Assembly: GCF_021206925.1 (NCBI RefSeq)
Contig: NZ_JAJPRF010000002.1
Span: 248,001-312,000, forward strand
Direction of reading: 5' to 3'
Length of the DNA stretch: 64,000 bases
Origin: Rhodoflexus caldus
Lineage (GTDB): Bacteria; Bacteroidota; Bacteroidia; Cytophagales; Thermoflexibacteraceae
Position 1 is the first letter of the stretch. Each line of letters starts with the position of its first letter. Of the stretch, positions 48,071-53,264 are shown piece after piece. The notes under the pieces were generated by a model. The model was given only the letters and a program-made list of their open reading frames with translations, was not told where the DNA came from and ran no database searches. The translations under genes and the position numbers were made by a program.

Positions 48071-50560
48071 ATGCGTCAGACTTTTTTTGCAGATATTCTT
48101 CTCCCCCTCCCGCTTAAAGGCACTTTTACCTACCGCGTGCCCCTTGCTTTGAACGATACCATTGCCGAAGGTACAAGAGTAGTTGTACAATTCGGACAAA
48201 AGCGCATCCTAACAGGCATCGTTATCCGCATCCACGAAAATCCGCCGCGCGACTATCAAACCAAAATGATTCTGGATTTGATAGACCGCCAGCCCATTGC
48301 TCTTCCTTTGCAGTTGCAATTTTGGGAGTGGGTATCCGACTACTACATCTGCACATGGGGCGAAGTAATGAACGTGGCCGTACCTGCCGGGCTGAAACTC
48401 AGCAGCGAGTCGCGCATCCAACTTCATCCGGCCTTGGCGGCAGATGACCTCAACCCTGATAATTTCAGCGAAAAGGAACTGCTGCTGCTGGACGCTCTGC
48501 GGCAAAATGAAACCTTGGGCTATGAAGAGGCAGTTAAAATTTCGGGTAACAAACAGATTTACAGCCTGTTAAAATCGCTTTTGCAGAAAGAATGTATCCT
48601 GATTTTTGAGGAACTCAAAGAAAAATATAAGCCCAAAACCATCAAAAAAGTTAGGTTACATGCCAATTGGCGCGGCAAAGATGAGGCATCCCTGATTGAA
48701 CTGTTAGACAGGCTTGCTAAACATACCAAACAAGAGGCCTTGATTCTCAGGTATTTATCGCTGATTCCTTGGCAAGCCGAACCGGAGCAACAACTCAACG
48801 GCATTCCCAAAAGCACGCTGCTTACTGCCAATCTGTCGGAAAGTGCATACAAAACACTACTGAAAAATGAAGTGCTGGAAGAGTTTGAAATAATCGTTTC
48901 GCGGTTGGAAGAGTTACCGACGGGCGACTTTCAGCTTCCGCAACTCACTGATGCACAAAGCAATGCGCTACAAAAAATCATCTCATTATGGGACAAAAAG
49001 CAGGCAGTATTGCTGCACGGCGTTACAGGCTCGGGTAAAACTGAACTCTACATACACTTGATAGACCAAATGTTGCAGTCGGGCAATCAGGTGCTGCTGC
49101 TGCTGCCGGAAATTGCTTTAACAACACAAATTGTCGCCCGTTTGCGGCGCGTTTTTGGCAATCGGCTGGGGGTTTACCATTCCCGATTTTCAGACAATGA
49201 ACGGGTGGAAGTATGGCACGGCATCATGGACGGGCGTTTTGATGTAATTGTTGGGGTTCGCTCCTCTATCTTCCTGCCTTTCAGTCATTTAGGTTTGATT
49301 ATTATTGATGAGGAGCATGATAGCTCCTACAAGCAATACGACCCTGCACCGCGTTACCACGCCCGCGATGCGGCTATGATGTTGGCGCATATGCACGGTG
49401 CAAAAGTGCTACTGGGAACAGCTACGCCATCGCTGGAAAGTTTTTATCATGCAGCCGAAAAACGCTACGGCTACGTGCGGCTGACACAGCGATTCAATGA
49501 TGCACAACTGCCTGCCATTCAGTTTATTAATACAAAACATGAAAGCAAAGCCAAGCGCATGATAGGCGAATTTGCACCGGTCACATTAGAGGCCATACGT
49601 ACAACGCTCGAGGCAAAAAAGCAGGTGATTTTGTTTCAGAATCGGCGCGGCTATGCTCCCCACCTCTCCTGCCAGACCTGTAACTGGGTGCCTCATTGCC
49701 AAAATTGCGCTGTCAGCCTCACATTTCACATGCACAGCAACGAATTGCGCTGCCACTATTGCGGTTACAGAGAAAACCCGCCGCACACCTGCCGACAGTG
49801 CGGCTCGCACGAAATCAAGACAGTGGGGTATGGTACCGAAAAAATAGAGGATACCGTGAAATCGCTTTTTCCCGATGCTGTGGTGCAGCGCATGGACTTA
49901 GATACTACTCGCGGAAAATATGGTCTGCAAAATATCATTGAGGATTTTTCTGCTCATAAAATTGACATATTGGTAGGTACGCAAATGGTTACTAAGGGGC
50001 TCGATTTTGACCATGTAGCGCTGGTAGTAGTGTTTGACATAGACCGCGCCTTGTACTATCCCGATTTCAGGGCACATGAGCGCGTATTCCAGATATTGAC
50101 GCAGGTAGCAGGAAGAGCAGGCAGAAAAGCCGCACAGGGAACGGTCATCATTCAAACGGGCAACCCGCACCACCCGATACTCGAGCATGTGGCGGCTCAT
50201 CATTTTGAAGACTTTTACAAGGATGAACTGCCGCAGCGTCAGCATTACCACTACCCGCCTTTTACCAGACTGATAGAACTGACCGTTAAGGGAGAGTCGG
50301 CAGAAGAGGTGGAAAAAGCGGCACAGAACCTTGCCGTGGCATTGCGCAATGGTTTAGGCGGCAACCGCGTGTTAGGGCCGCAAGCTCCCCCTATTGAGCG
50401 CATCCGCAATCAATATTTGCGCAACGTGCTCGTCAAAATTGAGCGACAAGGCACTTCACTCAAAGCAATGAAAGCATACATCGGCACGACCATGGACAAC
50501 CTCATAAAAAACAAGACCTTCAAAGAGTTAAAGGTCGTTGTCGATGTTGACCCCGTGTAA
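48071..50560 (+). CDS. priA: Primosomal protein N' (PriA helicase)
   Basis: Restarts stalled replication forks by unwinding DNA 3' to 5' and loading the primosome. 829 residues from ATG 48071. The N-terminal DNA-binding domain (about 1-105) leads to the winged helix, then Walker A GVTGSGKTE near residue 323, DEEH in the Walker B region, and GTATPSLES. The zinc-binding part has paired cysteines: CQTC, CQNC, CHYC and CRQC. Late motifs GTQMVTKGLDFDHV and QVAGRAGRK complete the SF2 core. ATG 48071 is preferred over upstream codons as it gives the family's usual FADILLPLPLKGTFTYRVP start. Confidence 0.96.
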   Translation: MRQTFFADILLPLPLKGTFTYRVPLALNDTIAEGTRVVVQFGQKRILTGIVIRIHENPPRDYQTKMILDLIDRQPIALPLQLQFWEWVSDYYICTWGEVMNVAVPAGLKLSSESRIQLHPALAADDLNPDNFSEKELLLLDALRQNETLGYEEAVKISGNKQIYSLLKSLLQKECILIFEELKEKYKPKTIKKVRLHANWRGKDEASLIELLDRLAKHTKQEALILRYLSLIPWQAEPEQQLNGIPKSTLLTANLSESAYKTLLKNEVLEEFEIIVSRLEELPTGDFQLPQLTDAQSNALQKIISLWDKKQAVLLHGVTGSGKTELYIHLIDQMLQSGNQVLLLLPEIALTTQIVARLRRVFGNRLGVYHSRFSDNERVEVWHGIMDGRFDVIVGVRSSIFLPFSHLGLIIIDEEHDSSYKQYDPAPRYHARDAAMMLAHMHGAKVLLGTATPSLESFYHAAEKRYGYVRLTQRFNDAQLPAIQFINTKHESKAKRMIGEFAPVTLEAIRTTLEAKKQVILFQNRRGYAPHLSCQTCNWVPHCQNCAVSLTFHMHSNELRCHYCGYRENPPHTCRQCGSHEIKTVGYGTEKIEDTVKSLFPDAVVQRMDLDTTRGKYGLQNIIEDFSAHKIDILVGTQMVTKGLDFDHVALVVVFDIDRALYYPDFRAHERVFQILTQVAGRAGRKAAQGTVIIQTGNPHHPILEHVAAHHFEDFYKDELPQRQHYHYPPFTRLIELTVKGESAEEVEKAAQNLAVALRNGLGGNRVLGPQAPPIERIRNQYLRNVLVKIERQGTSLKAMKAYIGTTMDNLIKNKTFKELKVVVDVDPV

Positions 50561-50570
50561 AGCGGGTTTT
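50552..50570 (+). terminator. Short terminator at the end of priA
   Basis: CCCG (50552-50555) pairs with CGGG (50563-50566) and TTTT follows; the hairpin lies across the priA stop codon. Small stem, so only moderate support. Confidence 0.4.
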
Positions 50571-51687
50571 AATAGACTTTTACTTGGAAAACGTAATCCT
50601 GTATTTTTTTCAGTTGAGCCGTCCGCTTTTGGCCTGCAAGTTTGCTTTGCTTGGGCAGGTCAAACATTTCATCCAGTTCGTTTGGTACACTGTCTTTCAA
50701 AGTGCGCCAGATGGCTGATGATTTAAGTGCGAAAGCCACACCTTCGGCACCTGAGAGTTTGCCCGAAACCACGCCGATAAGGTTGCCATTGGTATCAAAC
50801 ACGGGGCCTCCGCTGTTGCCCGGGTTCACCGGAATAGAGATTTGATAGGCAACAGAGTCGCCCTCAAAACCCGTGCGGGCGCTTATGCTGCCTTCTCCGT
50901 ACACAATATCATTTTTCGGATATGCCAGCGTAAAAATTTCTTCGCCCAAATCTACGGTTCCTTTTTTCAGTGTGTAAGGAATTCTGCCAAATTCATGGAA
51001 GGTACTGTCTGCTACTTTTAATACGGCAAGGTCAGTTCGTTCATCGCCAAAGGCTAATTCTACTTTGTAGCGCAATCCGGGCTGGGTAGTAGATTCTATG
51101 AAAACAGAATCGGCTTTTGCCACCAAGTGATAGCTGGTAATTAAGTGCCCTTTCTCCGAAATGGCAAAGCAAGTACCTTCAAAGCGCTGCGGAGCTGCCG
51201 TAGCCCGCGGGATAGCCCGATTCAGCGTGTCTTTGGTACTCTTTATATCGCGTTTGATTTGGTCTAACTCTCGGCGCAACAGTTTGAGATTGCTTTGCTG
51301 GCTGCGCTCCATGCTTTTCAGGTAGCCAAGCGTGAAAAGTGTACTCAGTACCGTAATCAGCGCAACACTTGCGGCTACGGCAATTGTCGGCAAATATTTG
51401 GAAGTATAAGTGCGCCAAGTGTCCTTATTTTTGTACACTTTCAGTGCCGCCTGCTGTTCAACAGGGTCTATTTCGGCATGGAATCGGTCAAGTTTAGCGC
51501 GGAGTTGCCGACGTTCTTTGAGCAAGTCCAAAGGTGTGCGCAATGCCTGATAGTCAGCAATTTGCTGTGCTAACTCAGGATTGGAAGCAATTTCTTTCTC
51601 AAAGGCAAGGTACTCCCCTGTCTCCATGTCGCCTTCAACATAGCGTTCTATTTTATCCCACAGTCGGAGTTGCTCTTCGGTATTCAT
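50569..51687 (-). CDS. Anti-sigma-like membrane protein fused to a trypsin-like (S1C) protease
   Basis: 372 residues in three parts. (1) A cytosolic N-terminus (about 1-90: LRLWDKIERYVEGDMETGEYLAFEKEIASNPELAQQI) typical of Bacteroidota anti-sigma factors that face an ECF sigma factor. (2) A membrane segment (about 99-122) and a coiled coil (about 125-155). (3) A periplasmic serine protease domain with the intact HtrA-type triad: His187 (TSYHLV), Asp219 (RTDLAVLKV), Ser292 (PGNSGGPVF). There is no PDZ domain. The ATG overlaps the stop of the upstream sigma gene by 4 bases, so the two are coupled. Reading: the protease may cut itself or envelope proteins to release sigma. This is inference. Confidence 0.88.
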   Translation of the reverse strand: MNTEEQLRLWDKIERYVEGDMETGEYLAFEKEIASNPELAQQIADYQALRTPLDLLKERRQLRAKLDRFHAEIDPVEQQAALKVYKNKDTWRTYTSKYLPTIAVAASVALITVLSTLFTLGYLKSMERSQQSNLKLLRRELDQIKRDIKSTKDTLNRAIPRATAAPQRFEGTCFAISEKGHLITSYHLVAKADSVFIESTTQPGLRYKVELAFGDERTDLAVLKVADSTFHEFGRIPYTLKKGTVDLGEEIFTLAYPKNDIVYGEGSISARTGFEGDSVAYQISIPVNPGNSGGPVFDTNGNLIGVVSGKLSGAEGVAFALKSSAIWRTLKDSVPNELDEMFDLPKQSKLAGQKRTAQLKKIQDYVFQVKVY

Positions 51688-52250
51688 TTCAGTTCTTCTA
51701 TTAATCTCTTCAACCGATTAAAACACTTGTATTTCTGTGTTTTAGCATTGTCGGCATTCGTATAGCCCATTTTTTCGGCAATATCTGCCATGCTCATTTC
51801 GTTGAGGTAGTAATCCTCCAAAATAGTACGACACGGTTCACCCAATCGCTGCATGGCTGCCTCTATCGTTACCAAGCGCGCTTCGTTTTCAATGCTGACG
51901 CTGTCCTCTACGAAAGGAATAAATTCCTCCACGTCTTTCAGGTCAGTTTTGATTTTCTTCGCCTGCAATCGTTTCAGCCAATGGTTGCGGCTGACCGAAT
52001 ACAGAAAAGTTTTAATACTGCATCGCAACTGAAAATCAGGCCGTTGCAAACTTTCGTAAAGCACGATAAATGCTTCCTGATAAATATCTTTGGCTTCATC
52101 TTCCGTTCCGCTATTGACCAGCACAAGGTGCAACACCATCGGAAAATAAAGTTTGTATATCCTGCTCATAACCGCCTCGTTATTTTCGCGAAGCGCTTTG
52201 ACAAAGCTCTCTTCGTTAAACAAGGCAGTTTTTTTCATCGCTACTTTCAT
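51684..52250 (-). CDS. ECF-type sigma-70 family RNA polymerase sigma factor
   Basis: 188 residues from ATG 52250; ATG 52238 is an alternative four codons later. Region 2 is visible as KLYFPMVLHLVLVNSGTEDEAKDIYQEAFIVLYESL and YSVSRNHWLKRLQ; region 4 as LGEPCRTILEDYYLNEMSMADIAEKMGYTNADNAKTQKYKCFNRLKRL, with a helix-turn-helix. Such sigma factors are held inactive by a membrane anti-sigma factor, here the coupled gene at 50569. It is divergent from queG with 75 bases between; no TAnnTTTG box reads towards it, which fits autoregulation by its own sigma. Its regulon is unknown. Confidence 0.9.
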   Translation of the reverse strand: MKVAMKKTALFNEESFVKALRENNEAVMSRIYKLYFPMVLHLVLVNSGTEDEAKDIYQEAFIVLYESLQRPDFQLRCSIKTFLYSVSRNHWLKRLQAKKIKTDLKDVEEFIPFVEDSVSIENEARLVTIEAAMQRLGEPCRTILEDYYLNEMSMADIAEKMGYTNADNAKTQKYKCFNRLKRLIEELK

Positions 52251-52301
52251 TAATACGTTTAGATAGGGATAAGTAACCCCCAAAGGAAAAAAATTTTGTA
52301 A

Positions 52302-52309
52302 TAATTTTG
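52302..52309 (+). promoter_or_regulatory. -7 box of queG
   Basis: TAATTTTG, full match to TAnnTTTG, 16 bases before the queG ATG. No TTG at the usual distance. Confidence 0.5.
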
Positions 52310-52325
52310 TCTGAAACCTGTCAAG

Positions 52326-53264
52326 ATGAATCTTCAACGCATCCGACATACAAATATAATCAAACAAAAGGCAGCAGAATTGGGCTTTGATTTTTGCGGT
52401 ATATCGGCTGCAACTTTTTTGGAGGAAGAGGCGCCGCGGTTAGAAAAATGGCTCAATCGGCACATGCACGGGCAGATGAGTTACATGGAAAATCATTTTG
52501 ACAAACGTTTAGACCCTCGCCTGCTGGTGCCCGGGGCAAAGTCGGTAGTATCGTTGCTCTACAACTATTATCCCGTCAAAAAAATACTGCACCAAGACGA
52601 TGAACTGAAAATATCTAAATACGCCTACGGCACTGATTATCACTTTGTTATTAAAGACAAGTTAAAGTCGTTATTAGAGGCTTTGCGTCAGGAAATCGGC
52701 GATATTGACGGGCGCGTTTTTGTAGATTCTGCCCCTGTGATGGACAAGGCTTGGGCAGCCCGCAGCGGCGCAGGATGGCTTGGTAAGCACACCAATATCA
52801 TCAACAGAAAACTGGGCAGTTTTTTCTTTATCGCCGAACTGATTATTGACCTTGATTTAGAGCCTGATGCACCCACCAAAGACTATTGCGGCACCTGCAC
52901 GCGCTGCATAGATGCCTGCCCGACCGATGCAATTGTTGAACCTTACGTAGTGGACGGAAGTAAATGTATCTCTTACCTGACCATTGAACTGAAAGACAAA
53001 ATACCCGATGAGTTTGCCGGCAAAATGGACAATTGGATTTTTGGTTGCGATGTGTGCCAAGATGTGTGCCCGTGGAACCGATTTGCTGCCCCGCACCGCG
53101 AACCTGCATTTGAGCCGCACCCACATCTGGAACACATGAAAACCTCTGATTGGCAGGAACTTACCGAAGAACTTTTCAATGAGTTGTTCAAAAAATCTGC
53201 CGTTAAACGCACCAAACTGACAGGACTTCAGCGCAACGTGGCCTTTGTTACTGAACAAAAATAG
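52326..53264 (+). CDS. queG: Epoxyqueuosine reductase
   Basis: Last step of queuosine synthesis: reduces epoxyqueuosine in tRNA using cobalamin and two 4Fe-4S clusters. 312 residues with [20 protein letters not shown] at the start, the [27 protein letters not shown] catalytic block (about 135-160), and two ferredoxin-type motifs: [16 protein letters not shown] and [13 protein letters not shown]. Length is a little below the common 340-380 because the C-terminal HEAT-like repeats are absent, as in many Bacteroidota. Divergent from the sigma gene. batD follows with its own promoter. Confidence 0.95.

Follow-up and report, generated by a model that had tools for sequence, protein, structure and literature searches.

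The window analysed here, a 64,000-nucleotide stretch of the Rhodoflexus caldus genome (contig NZ_JAJPRF010000002.1, positions 248,001 to 312,000), contains an ECF sigma factor gene overlapping a gene whose product carries an anti-sigma-like region, a membrane segment and an HtrA-type protease domain in one chain (Table 1). This raises the question of whether a single protein might both restrain a sigma factor and make the proteolytic cut that begins its release. Our answer, to which we assign a probability of only about 0.55, is that the protein combines an RseA-like anti-sigma factor and a DegS-like site-1 protease in one, probably trimeric, self-cutting chain, the self-cleavage being an inference.

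Table 1. Features of the gene pair and of the fusion protein, in window positions
Feature	Positions	Strand	Basis or remark
Presumed autoregulatory ECF promoter	52250-52278	minus	GGTTAC (52278-52273) - N16 - GTATTAA (52256-52250)
ECF sigma factor gene	51684-52250	minus	188 aa from ATG at 52250; TIGR02937 2.4e-17
Anti-sigma/protease fusion gene	50569-51687	minus	372 aa; 4-base overlap with sigma gene at 51684-51687
Cytosolic four-helix anti-sigma domain (very likely), no zinc motif, residues 1-90	51418-51687	minus	Model helices, profile, fold matches
Single membrane helix, residues 101-121	51325-51387	minus	Hydropathy; inside modelled helix 88-158
Ala105-Ala106 (VAAS here), proposed RseP cut site and ClpXP degron	51370-51375	minus	Invariant in 118/118
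Coiled coil with conserved heptad, residues 131-158	51214-51297	minus	Permutation 5e-5; modelled helix
Flexible linker, candidate site-1 cleavage region, residues 158-168	51184-51216	minus	pLDDT <50 at 158-163; cleavage inferred
HtrA/S1C-like protease domain, residues 169-334	50686-51183	minus	Trypsin_2, triad, structure matches
Triad codons His187, Asp219, Ser292	51127-51129, 51031-51033, 50812-50814	minus	
Conserved C-terminal helix 355-365 and strand 366-371, residues 335-372	50572-50685	minus	Model, high confidence; at the PDZ place of HtrA proteins

The sigma protein matches TIGR02937 (residues 30-182) and the Pfam model Sigma70_r2 (1.7e-7) above their cut-offs, with the region 4 Pfam models scoring just under theirs; on these matches it meets the ECF criterion of sigma regions 2 and 4 without region 3. 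The fusion protein is single-copy in this genome, where four other HtrA-type matches cover the protease domain only. Long matches to it were recovered in 26 of 59 related genomes (loci L001 and L006-L030), and a sigma gene precedes every one of them. A scan of 395 genomes of the phylum gave 29 with a match at E 1e-90 or better, six from the same order and 23 from two families of the same class; weaker listed matches outside these 29 were not inspected individually. A scan of named genomes added Pontibacter, Hymenobacter, Mucilaginibacter, Pedobacter, Sphingobacterium, Chitinophaga, Flavihumibacter, Sediminibacterium and others, these genera belonging to the Cytophagales, Sphingobacteriales and Chitinophagales. 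From that scan the 80 top-ranked of 575 confirmed stretches were taken as loci, and they so sample the nearest relatives. Protease-only matches (L002-L005, L031-L034, L109-L114, L144 and others) were excluded from the family. The alignment of 118 proteins further omits exact duplicates, L075 (an extended open reading frame), L090 (C-terminus cut) and L094 and L105 (starts at contig edges); restoring L075 and L090 gives the 120 full-length loci used in counting sigma genes.

A sigma gene lies upstream of the fusion gene in all 120 of these loci, which is the gene position expected of a class I anti-sigma factor, as detected by an open reading frame test in 119 and by tblastn in L075. The two genes overlap in 44 of the 119, are spaced by 0-50 bases in 64 and by more than 50, up to 173, in the remaining 11. 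Where wide flanks were available (70 loci), the sigma gene comes directly before the fusion gene in 69, and every other cluster of open reading frames of at least 80 residues is confined to 21 of these loci or fewer; a conserved third gene was hence not found at that size, the clustering being blind to small lipoproteins. The pairing is a computed result, and because the same layout is conserved in 118 distinct proteins the architecture is not a chance assembly. The distance correlations between the sigma factor and the anti-sigma domain (r 0.78) and between the sigma factor and the protease (r 0.74) cannot separate cognate pairing from common descent and were not used. As a side observation, the contig of L094 is labelled Bifidobacterium breve (a MAG) and carries a Bacteroidota-type fusion gene; the bin is probably contaminated or mislabelled.

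Residues 1-92 of the fusion protein are very likely an anti-sigma domain, with sigma binding and inhibition being inferred. One line of support comes from a profile of these residues built from the fusion family only, which on 19 genomes returned 29 matches beyond the ten family members. Loci were fetched for 20 of these non-family matches. A sigma gene was located within 160 bp upstream for 17 of them and about 1.1 kb upstream for two, and one has none; this sole exception is a FecR protein, itself an anti-sigma type. The other nine of the 29 came without a locus and stand outside this count. The C-terminal parts of the proteins found with the profile differ, with TPR, FecR and PD40 propeller regions among them. 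Class I anti-sigma factors have a bundle of three helices at the N-terminus and a fourth helix that binds sigma. The N-terminus is modelled here as four helices at high confidence, and a Foldseek search with this domain listed 22 PDB rows up to E 10, eight of them anti-sigma factors and all with E-values above 1. The best four entries on re-alignment were RslA, RsiW, MucA and RskA (Z 5.9, 5.5, 5.4 and 4.4), so that the fold matches anti-sigma factors, each of them weakly.

Comparisons with curated models and known sequences gave little further support. No Pfam match above cut-off was found for residues 1-96, and neither the RseA Pfam models nor the RsgI N-terminal domain was listed up to E 1 for the fusion protein. 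The anti-sigma model NF052375 scored 20.7 bits against a cut-off of 100, and matches 47 of the 118 members at E 0.01 or better. In hhalign, the family and E. coli RseA aligned with a probability of only 8.9 percent. When the N-terminal profile was run against PDB sequences, PPAR receptors led (E 0.006) and no anti-sigma factor appeared among the 60 matches shown; we took the receptor matches as chance and counted this search as evidence against the assignment. These weak scores could favor a rival view, in which the pairing serves mainly to co-express the protease with the sigma factor and the N-terminus does not bind that sigma factor. Also in its favor are L026 and L030, members from one family that lack residues 1-42 (anti-sigma helices 1 and 2) and still adjoin a sigma gene. 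We consider this view very unlikely: the N-terminal domain tracks sigma genes whatever follows it, and its fold matches, if weak, are to anti-sigma factors. Separately, loci L162-L181 represent a wider Bacteroidota set of anti-sigma proteins sharing the N-terminal domain, with TPR, FecR, propeller or unknown C-termini and open frames of up to 931 residues; two of them (L175 and L181) are in this genome.

The preliminary description of the locus, made from sequence alone, had reported the two overlapping reading frames and a protein with an anti-sigma-like N-terminus, one membrane segment, a coiled coil and a PDZ-less protease domain with intact His187, Asp219 and Ser292, and all of this held. 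The one revision concerns the sigma gene, for which the in-frame ATG at 52238 (184 residues) is probably the better start, an inference made because the conserved promoter discussed below ends on 52250, the first base of the start codon given originally. It had named two outcomes that would refute it. The first, that the protein occurs mainly without a sigma gene beside it, came out the opposite way. The second, that residues 1-95 do not match or contact sigma factors in structure prediction, was answered in part by a likeness of residues 1-92 to anti-sigma factors that is present with every E-value above 1 and Z of only 4.4-5.9, and by the other sigma-adjacent proteins that the N-terminal profile finds.

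At the other end of the chain, Trypsin_2 matches residues 171-306 (8.2e-21), and a chymotrypsin-like fold with a His-Asp-Ser triad is present, which meets the HtrA/S1C criterion. The three triad residues do not vary among the 118 aligned proteins, a computed result which indicates that the protease has been kept under selection. They belong to a short list of invariant columns: Ala105, Ala106, Gly180, Thr184, His187, Asp219, Pro257, Gly266, Gly290, Ser292, Gly293, Gly301 and Gly305, with Tyr16 also invariant in all 116 members that reach that position. Matches 1-16 of the whole model in Foldseek are all DegS chains; re-alignment gave Z scores of about 20 for Deg2, HtrA1, DegS and DegP alike, and the specific claim that DegS is the closest structure was dropped. 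The curated DegS model TIGR02038 scores far below its cut-off (53.6 against 422.95 bits), no PDZ model is listed up to E 1, and merely 38 residues follow the protease domain. We conclude that the domain is an HtrA-like protease without PDZ, and not DegS.

The regions between the two ends were examined in an AlphaFold2 model (mean pLDDT 88.4, pTM 0.58), which predicts helices at 3-18, 23-35, 37-72 and 75-86, followed by a long helix, 88-158, running through the membrane segment and the coiled coil. A hydrophobic segment past residue 40 is predicted in 118/118 members by a simple hydropathy scan. The conserved heptad, also a computed feature, has hydrophobic positions at 134, 137, 141, 144, 151 and 155 together with Gln 148, the hydrophobic fraction being 0.81 at these seven core positions versus 0.09 elsewhere. 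As an HtrA-type domain here sits on a coiled coil, the fusion protein is probably a trimer; its oligomeric state is inferred.

In the membrane segment, no column among residues 101-120 is invariant except Ala105 and Ala106 (118/118), and 82 of the 118 proteins have V/I-A-A-S, by which the XAA membrane-helix criterion of RseA-like substrates of intramembrane proteolysis is met. E. coli RseA, as encoded in the K-12 genome, has V106-A107-A108-C109; RseP cuts it after A108, between A108 and C109. The XAA ends of RsgI proteins are recognised by ClpXP (PMC12203970). This genome encodes an RseP homolog (264 bits) and a ClpX match, both above cut-off, and a ClpP match at E 6e-84 that, with 281.5 bits, is under the curated cut-off of 308.6. 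The invariance of the Ala-Ala pair and the presence of the RseP and ClpX homologs are computed; that they point to RseP and ClpXP processing of the fusion protein is a likely inference.

It is conceivable that no proteolytic release takes place, and that a conformational signal instead passes through the trimeric coiled coil and the membrane helix to the anti-sigma domains, with the Ala-Ala pair serving as a packing motif. In favor of this proposal, the continuous modelled helix 88-158 links the membrane segment to the coiled coil, the heptad is conserved, and Ala105 together with residue 109 (Ala or Gly in 106/118) forms a small-xxx-small pattern, so that helix packing remains a possible reading for Ala105. 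However, packing does not demand an invariant Ala106. Moreover, Ala-Ala occurs at the matching place in 13 of 18 other proteins that have the anti-sigma domain and a predicted membrane helix without such a coiled coil or protease (the remaining five lack it), as against 24 of 117 membrane proteins from the flanking DNA and 15 of the 61 with one helix (Fisher 2.5e-5 and 4.6e-4, the 18 proteins being related to each other). We accordingly rate the conformational alternative as unlikely.

The preferred reading, in which the fused protease would initiate release, can be set out as follows. In the resting state the N-terminal helices would hold the sigma factor at the membrane, and the coiled coil and the HtrA-like domain would assemble the protein into an oligomer, probably trimeric, with a periplasmic part bulky enough to keep RseP out. 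An envelope signal, whose nature is inferred, would switch the protease on through the domain itself or the C-terminal helix-strand element, given that there is no PDZ domain. The active protease may then cut the linker between the coiled coil and the protease domain, in its own or a neighbouring chain. RseP would next cut at the Ala-Ala pair in the membrane helix, ClpXP would take the exposed -AA end, and the freed sigma factor would act at GGTTAC-N15/16-GTATTAA promoters to transcribe its own operon and genes for small lipoproteins. No binding or cleavage has been shown for any of these steps. RseP does not accept substrates that have a large periplasmic domain before a first cut is made (PMC8144685, PMC7593790), and the site-1 proteases known in PMC7593790 are separate proteins. 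The simplest reading is that the fused protease makes that first cut. The invariant Ala-Ala and the invariant triad strengthen the case for self-cleavage, which is an inference still.

A second alternative, which we regard as possible, is that the fused domain is an active periplasmic protease and another periplasmic protease makes the site-1 cut. The fused protease would then degrade damaged proteins, and on being occupied or assembled would change shape and expose the linker, acting as sensor and effector. Supporting this are the four other HtrA-type matches in the genome, and again the known site-1 proteases, all of them separate proteins (PMC7593790). Furthermore, in 10 fetched relatives (L182-L191) the protease module with its tail is joined to other N-termini (TPR in L187, MORN and DUF4468 in L188), no sigma gene was found beside it in these ten, and the module must therefore have a function of its own; in five of the ten the match reaches the last one or two profile positions, that is, the C-terminal strand. 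However, this alternative alone fails to explain an intact triad fixed with the pairing in 118/118, for which a dead sensor would suffice.

Several known systems share parts of this architecture. The E. coli sigma-E system (RseA/DegS/RseP/ClpXP) likewise has a sigma gene followed by a membrane anti-sigma gene, a cytosolic helical anti-sigma domain, a VAA-type motif where the membrane helix meets the cytosol and a DegS-like protease domain, and homologs of RseP and ClpX are present here. Unlike in that system, where RseA and DegS are two proteins, a single chain is found here, without a PDZ domain, an RseA Pfam match or a conserved RseB-like third gene of at least 80 residues. RsgI9 of Clostridium thermocellum (PDB 7sjy) is also a membrane anti-sigma factor, whose membrane helix carries an XAA motif and whose outside domain is of the S1C type (match to residues 170-312, E 8.7e-7); in contrast to the present proteins it is of the Sigma-I and not the ECF type, and it is an orphan without a known sigma partner (PMC12203970). 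Its S1C domain is reported to resemble a protease and to bind cellulose, and the periplasmic domains of RsgI proteins undergo autocleavage (PMC12203970), whereas the fusion family has an invariant triad and a sigma gene that always adjoins. MarP (Rv3671c) is a membrane-anchored, PDZ-less S1-type protease whose model NF033740 matches residues 111-333 with 62.8 bits against a cut-off of 250, but it has no anti-sigma domain. The class I anti-sigma factors RslA, RsiW, MucA and RskA resemble residues 1-92 in fold, by weak matches, and share the gene order; to our knowledge none has a protease domain.

Release of a membrane anti-sigma factor by proteolysis is thus known, and RsgI9 is a partial precedent; the new elements are that the protease is part of the anti-sigma chain and is paired with an ECF sigma factor, that many Bacteroidota have kept this arrangement, and that it comes with a defined promoter and putative lipoprotein targets. 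The preliminary description knew of no described system with exactly this layout, which held for ECF sigma factors in the literature searched, with the reservation that RsgI9 likewise has an anti-sigma factor and an S1C-type protease domain in one protein. No ECF anti-sigma/HtrA fusion was found in that literature, which did not cover the main ECF classification paper (PMC7826278), and we do not claim its absence from print. Its suggestion that the protease cuts its own linker stands as an inference with the support given above; it had noticed neither the invariant Ala-Ala nor the promoter shared with small lipoprotein genes. If the preferred reading is true, the rate-limiting first cut of a sigma-release cascade has been built into the anti-sigma factor, and the switch depends on one protein's own activation and not on the meeting of two. 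A class I anti-sigma factor is recognised next to only 6 percent of Bacteroidota ECF sigma factors (PMC7406223); the fusion family and the proteins sharing its N-terminal profile would be one set of missed sigma/anti-sigma pairs in this phylum.

Of the 118 regions lying upstream of the sigma genes, 100 contain a motif GGTTAC-N15/16-GTATTA (mean 0.01 in 100 mononucleotide shuffles), and the opposite strand of these 118 regions carries it in 31 cases; a generic sigma-70 promoter scan found nothing in 50400-52500. Across 123 family loci there are 166 distinct sites, preceding a sigma gene in 105 cases, a small lipoprotein (fewer than 120 residues, with a lipobox by pattern) in 54, another open reading frame in one and none in six; the reversed motif gave one site and the scrambled motif none. 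The longer form GGTTAC-N15/16-GTATTAA occurs at 75 sites in the 59 genomes, against 38 for the reversed control (table summed). The 26 family-bearing genomes account for 58 sites versus 16 of the control, and the 33 without the family for 17 versus 22. The 58 sites precede sigma genes in 24 cases, lipoprotein genes in 17 and others in 17, some of the 24 belonging to other ECF sigma genes (L230, L232, L233). A small lipoprotein lies behind a site in 15 of the 26 family genomes, and behind none of the 14 sites, out of 17, that were examined in nine genomes without the family. The present genome has sites at the operon, before a gene for a 62-residue lipoprotein on another contig (L194, 1576-1764), and at C4:190104, before a protein that is AraC-like by eye; the last is also present in one sister genome, and the reversed-pattern control likewise gives one hit in this genome. 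The shared promoter is computed, and from it we infer that the sigma factor likely switches on its own genes and those of small surface lipoproteins.

This raises the possibility of a bolder reading, in which a PDZ-less trimer is triggered by small lipoproteins that are unlipidated or not exported to the outer membrane, cuts in its own linkers free the sigma factor, and the conserved targets are those same lipoproteins, so that one protein would be sensor, brake and self-cutting scissors guarding lipoprotein homeostasis. Taken jointly, these propositions are unlikely. The conserved promoter and the inferred lipoprotein targets provide a ready reporter for the mechanism.

Two further observations concern these sites. 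A second ECF sigma gene (179-190 residues) with a near-identical promoter occurs in genomes with and without the fusion (L230, L232, L233, L255). The small lipoproteins behind the promoter shared with the sigma gene have about 54-90 residues, a lipobox and Asp/Ser/Thr/Ala/Lys repeats (L194:1501-1764, in this genome on another contig, L014, L036, L044, L055, L120 and others). They have no Pfam match above cut-off and score 31.9-45.4 bits with the PG1828 lipoprotein model, close to its cut-off of 50, their low complexity making the scores uncertain, and their genes at times stand in two or three tandem copies beside the operon.
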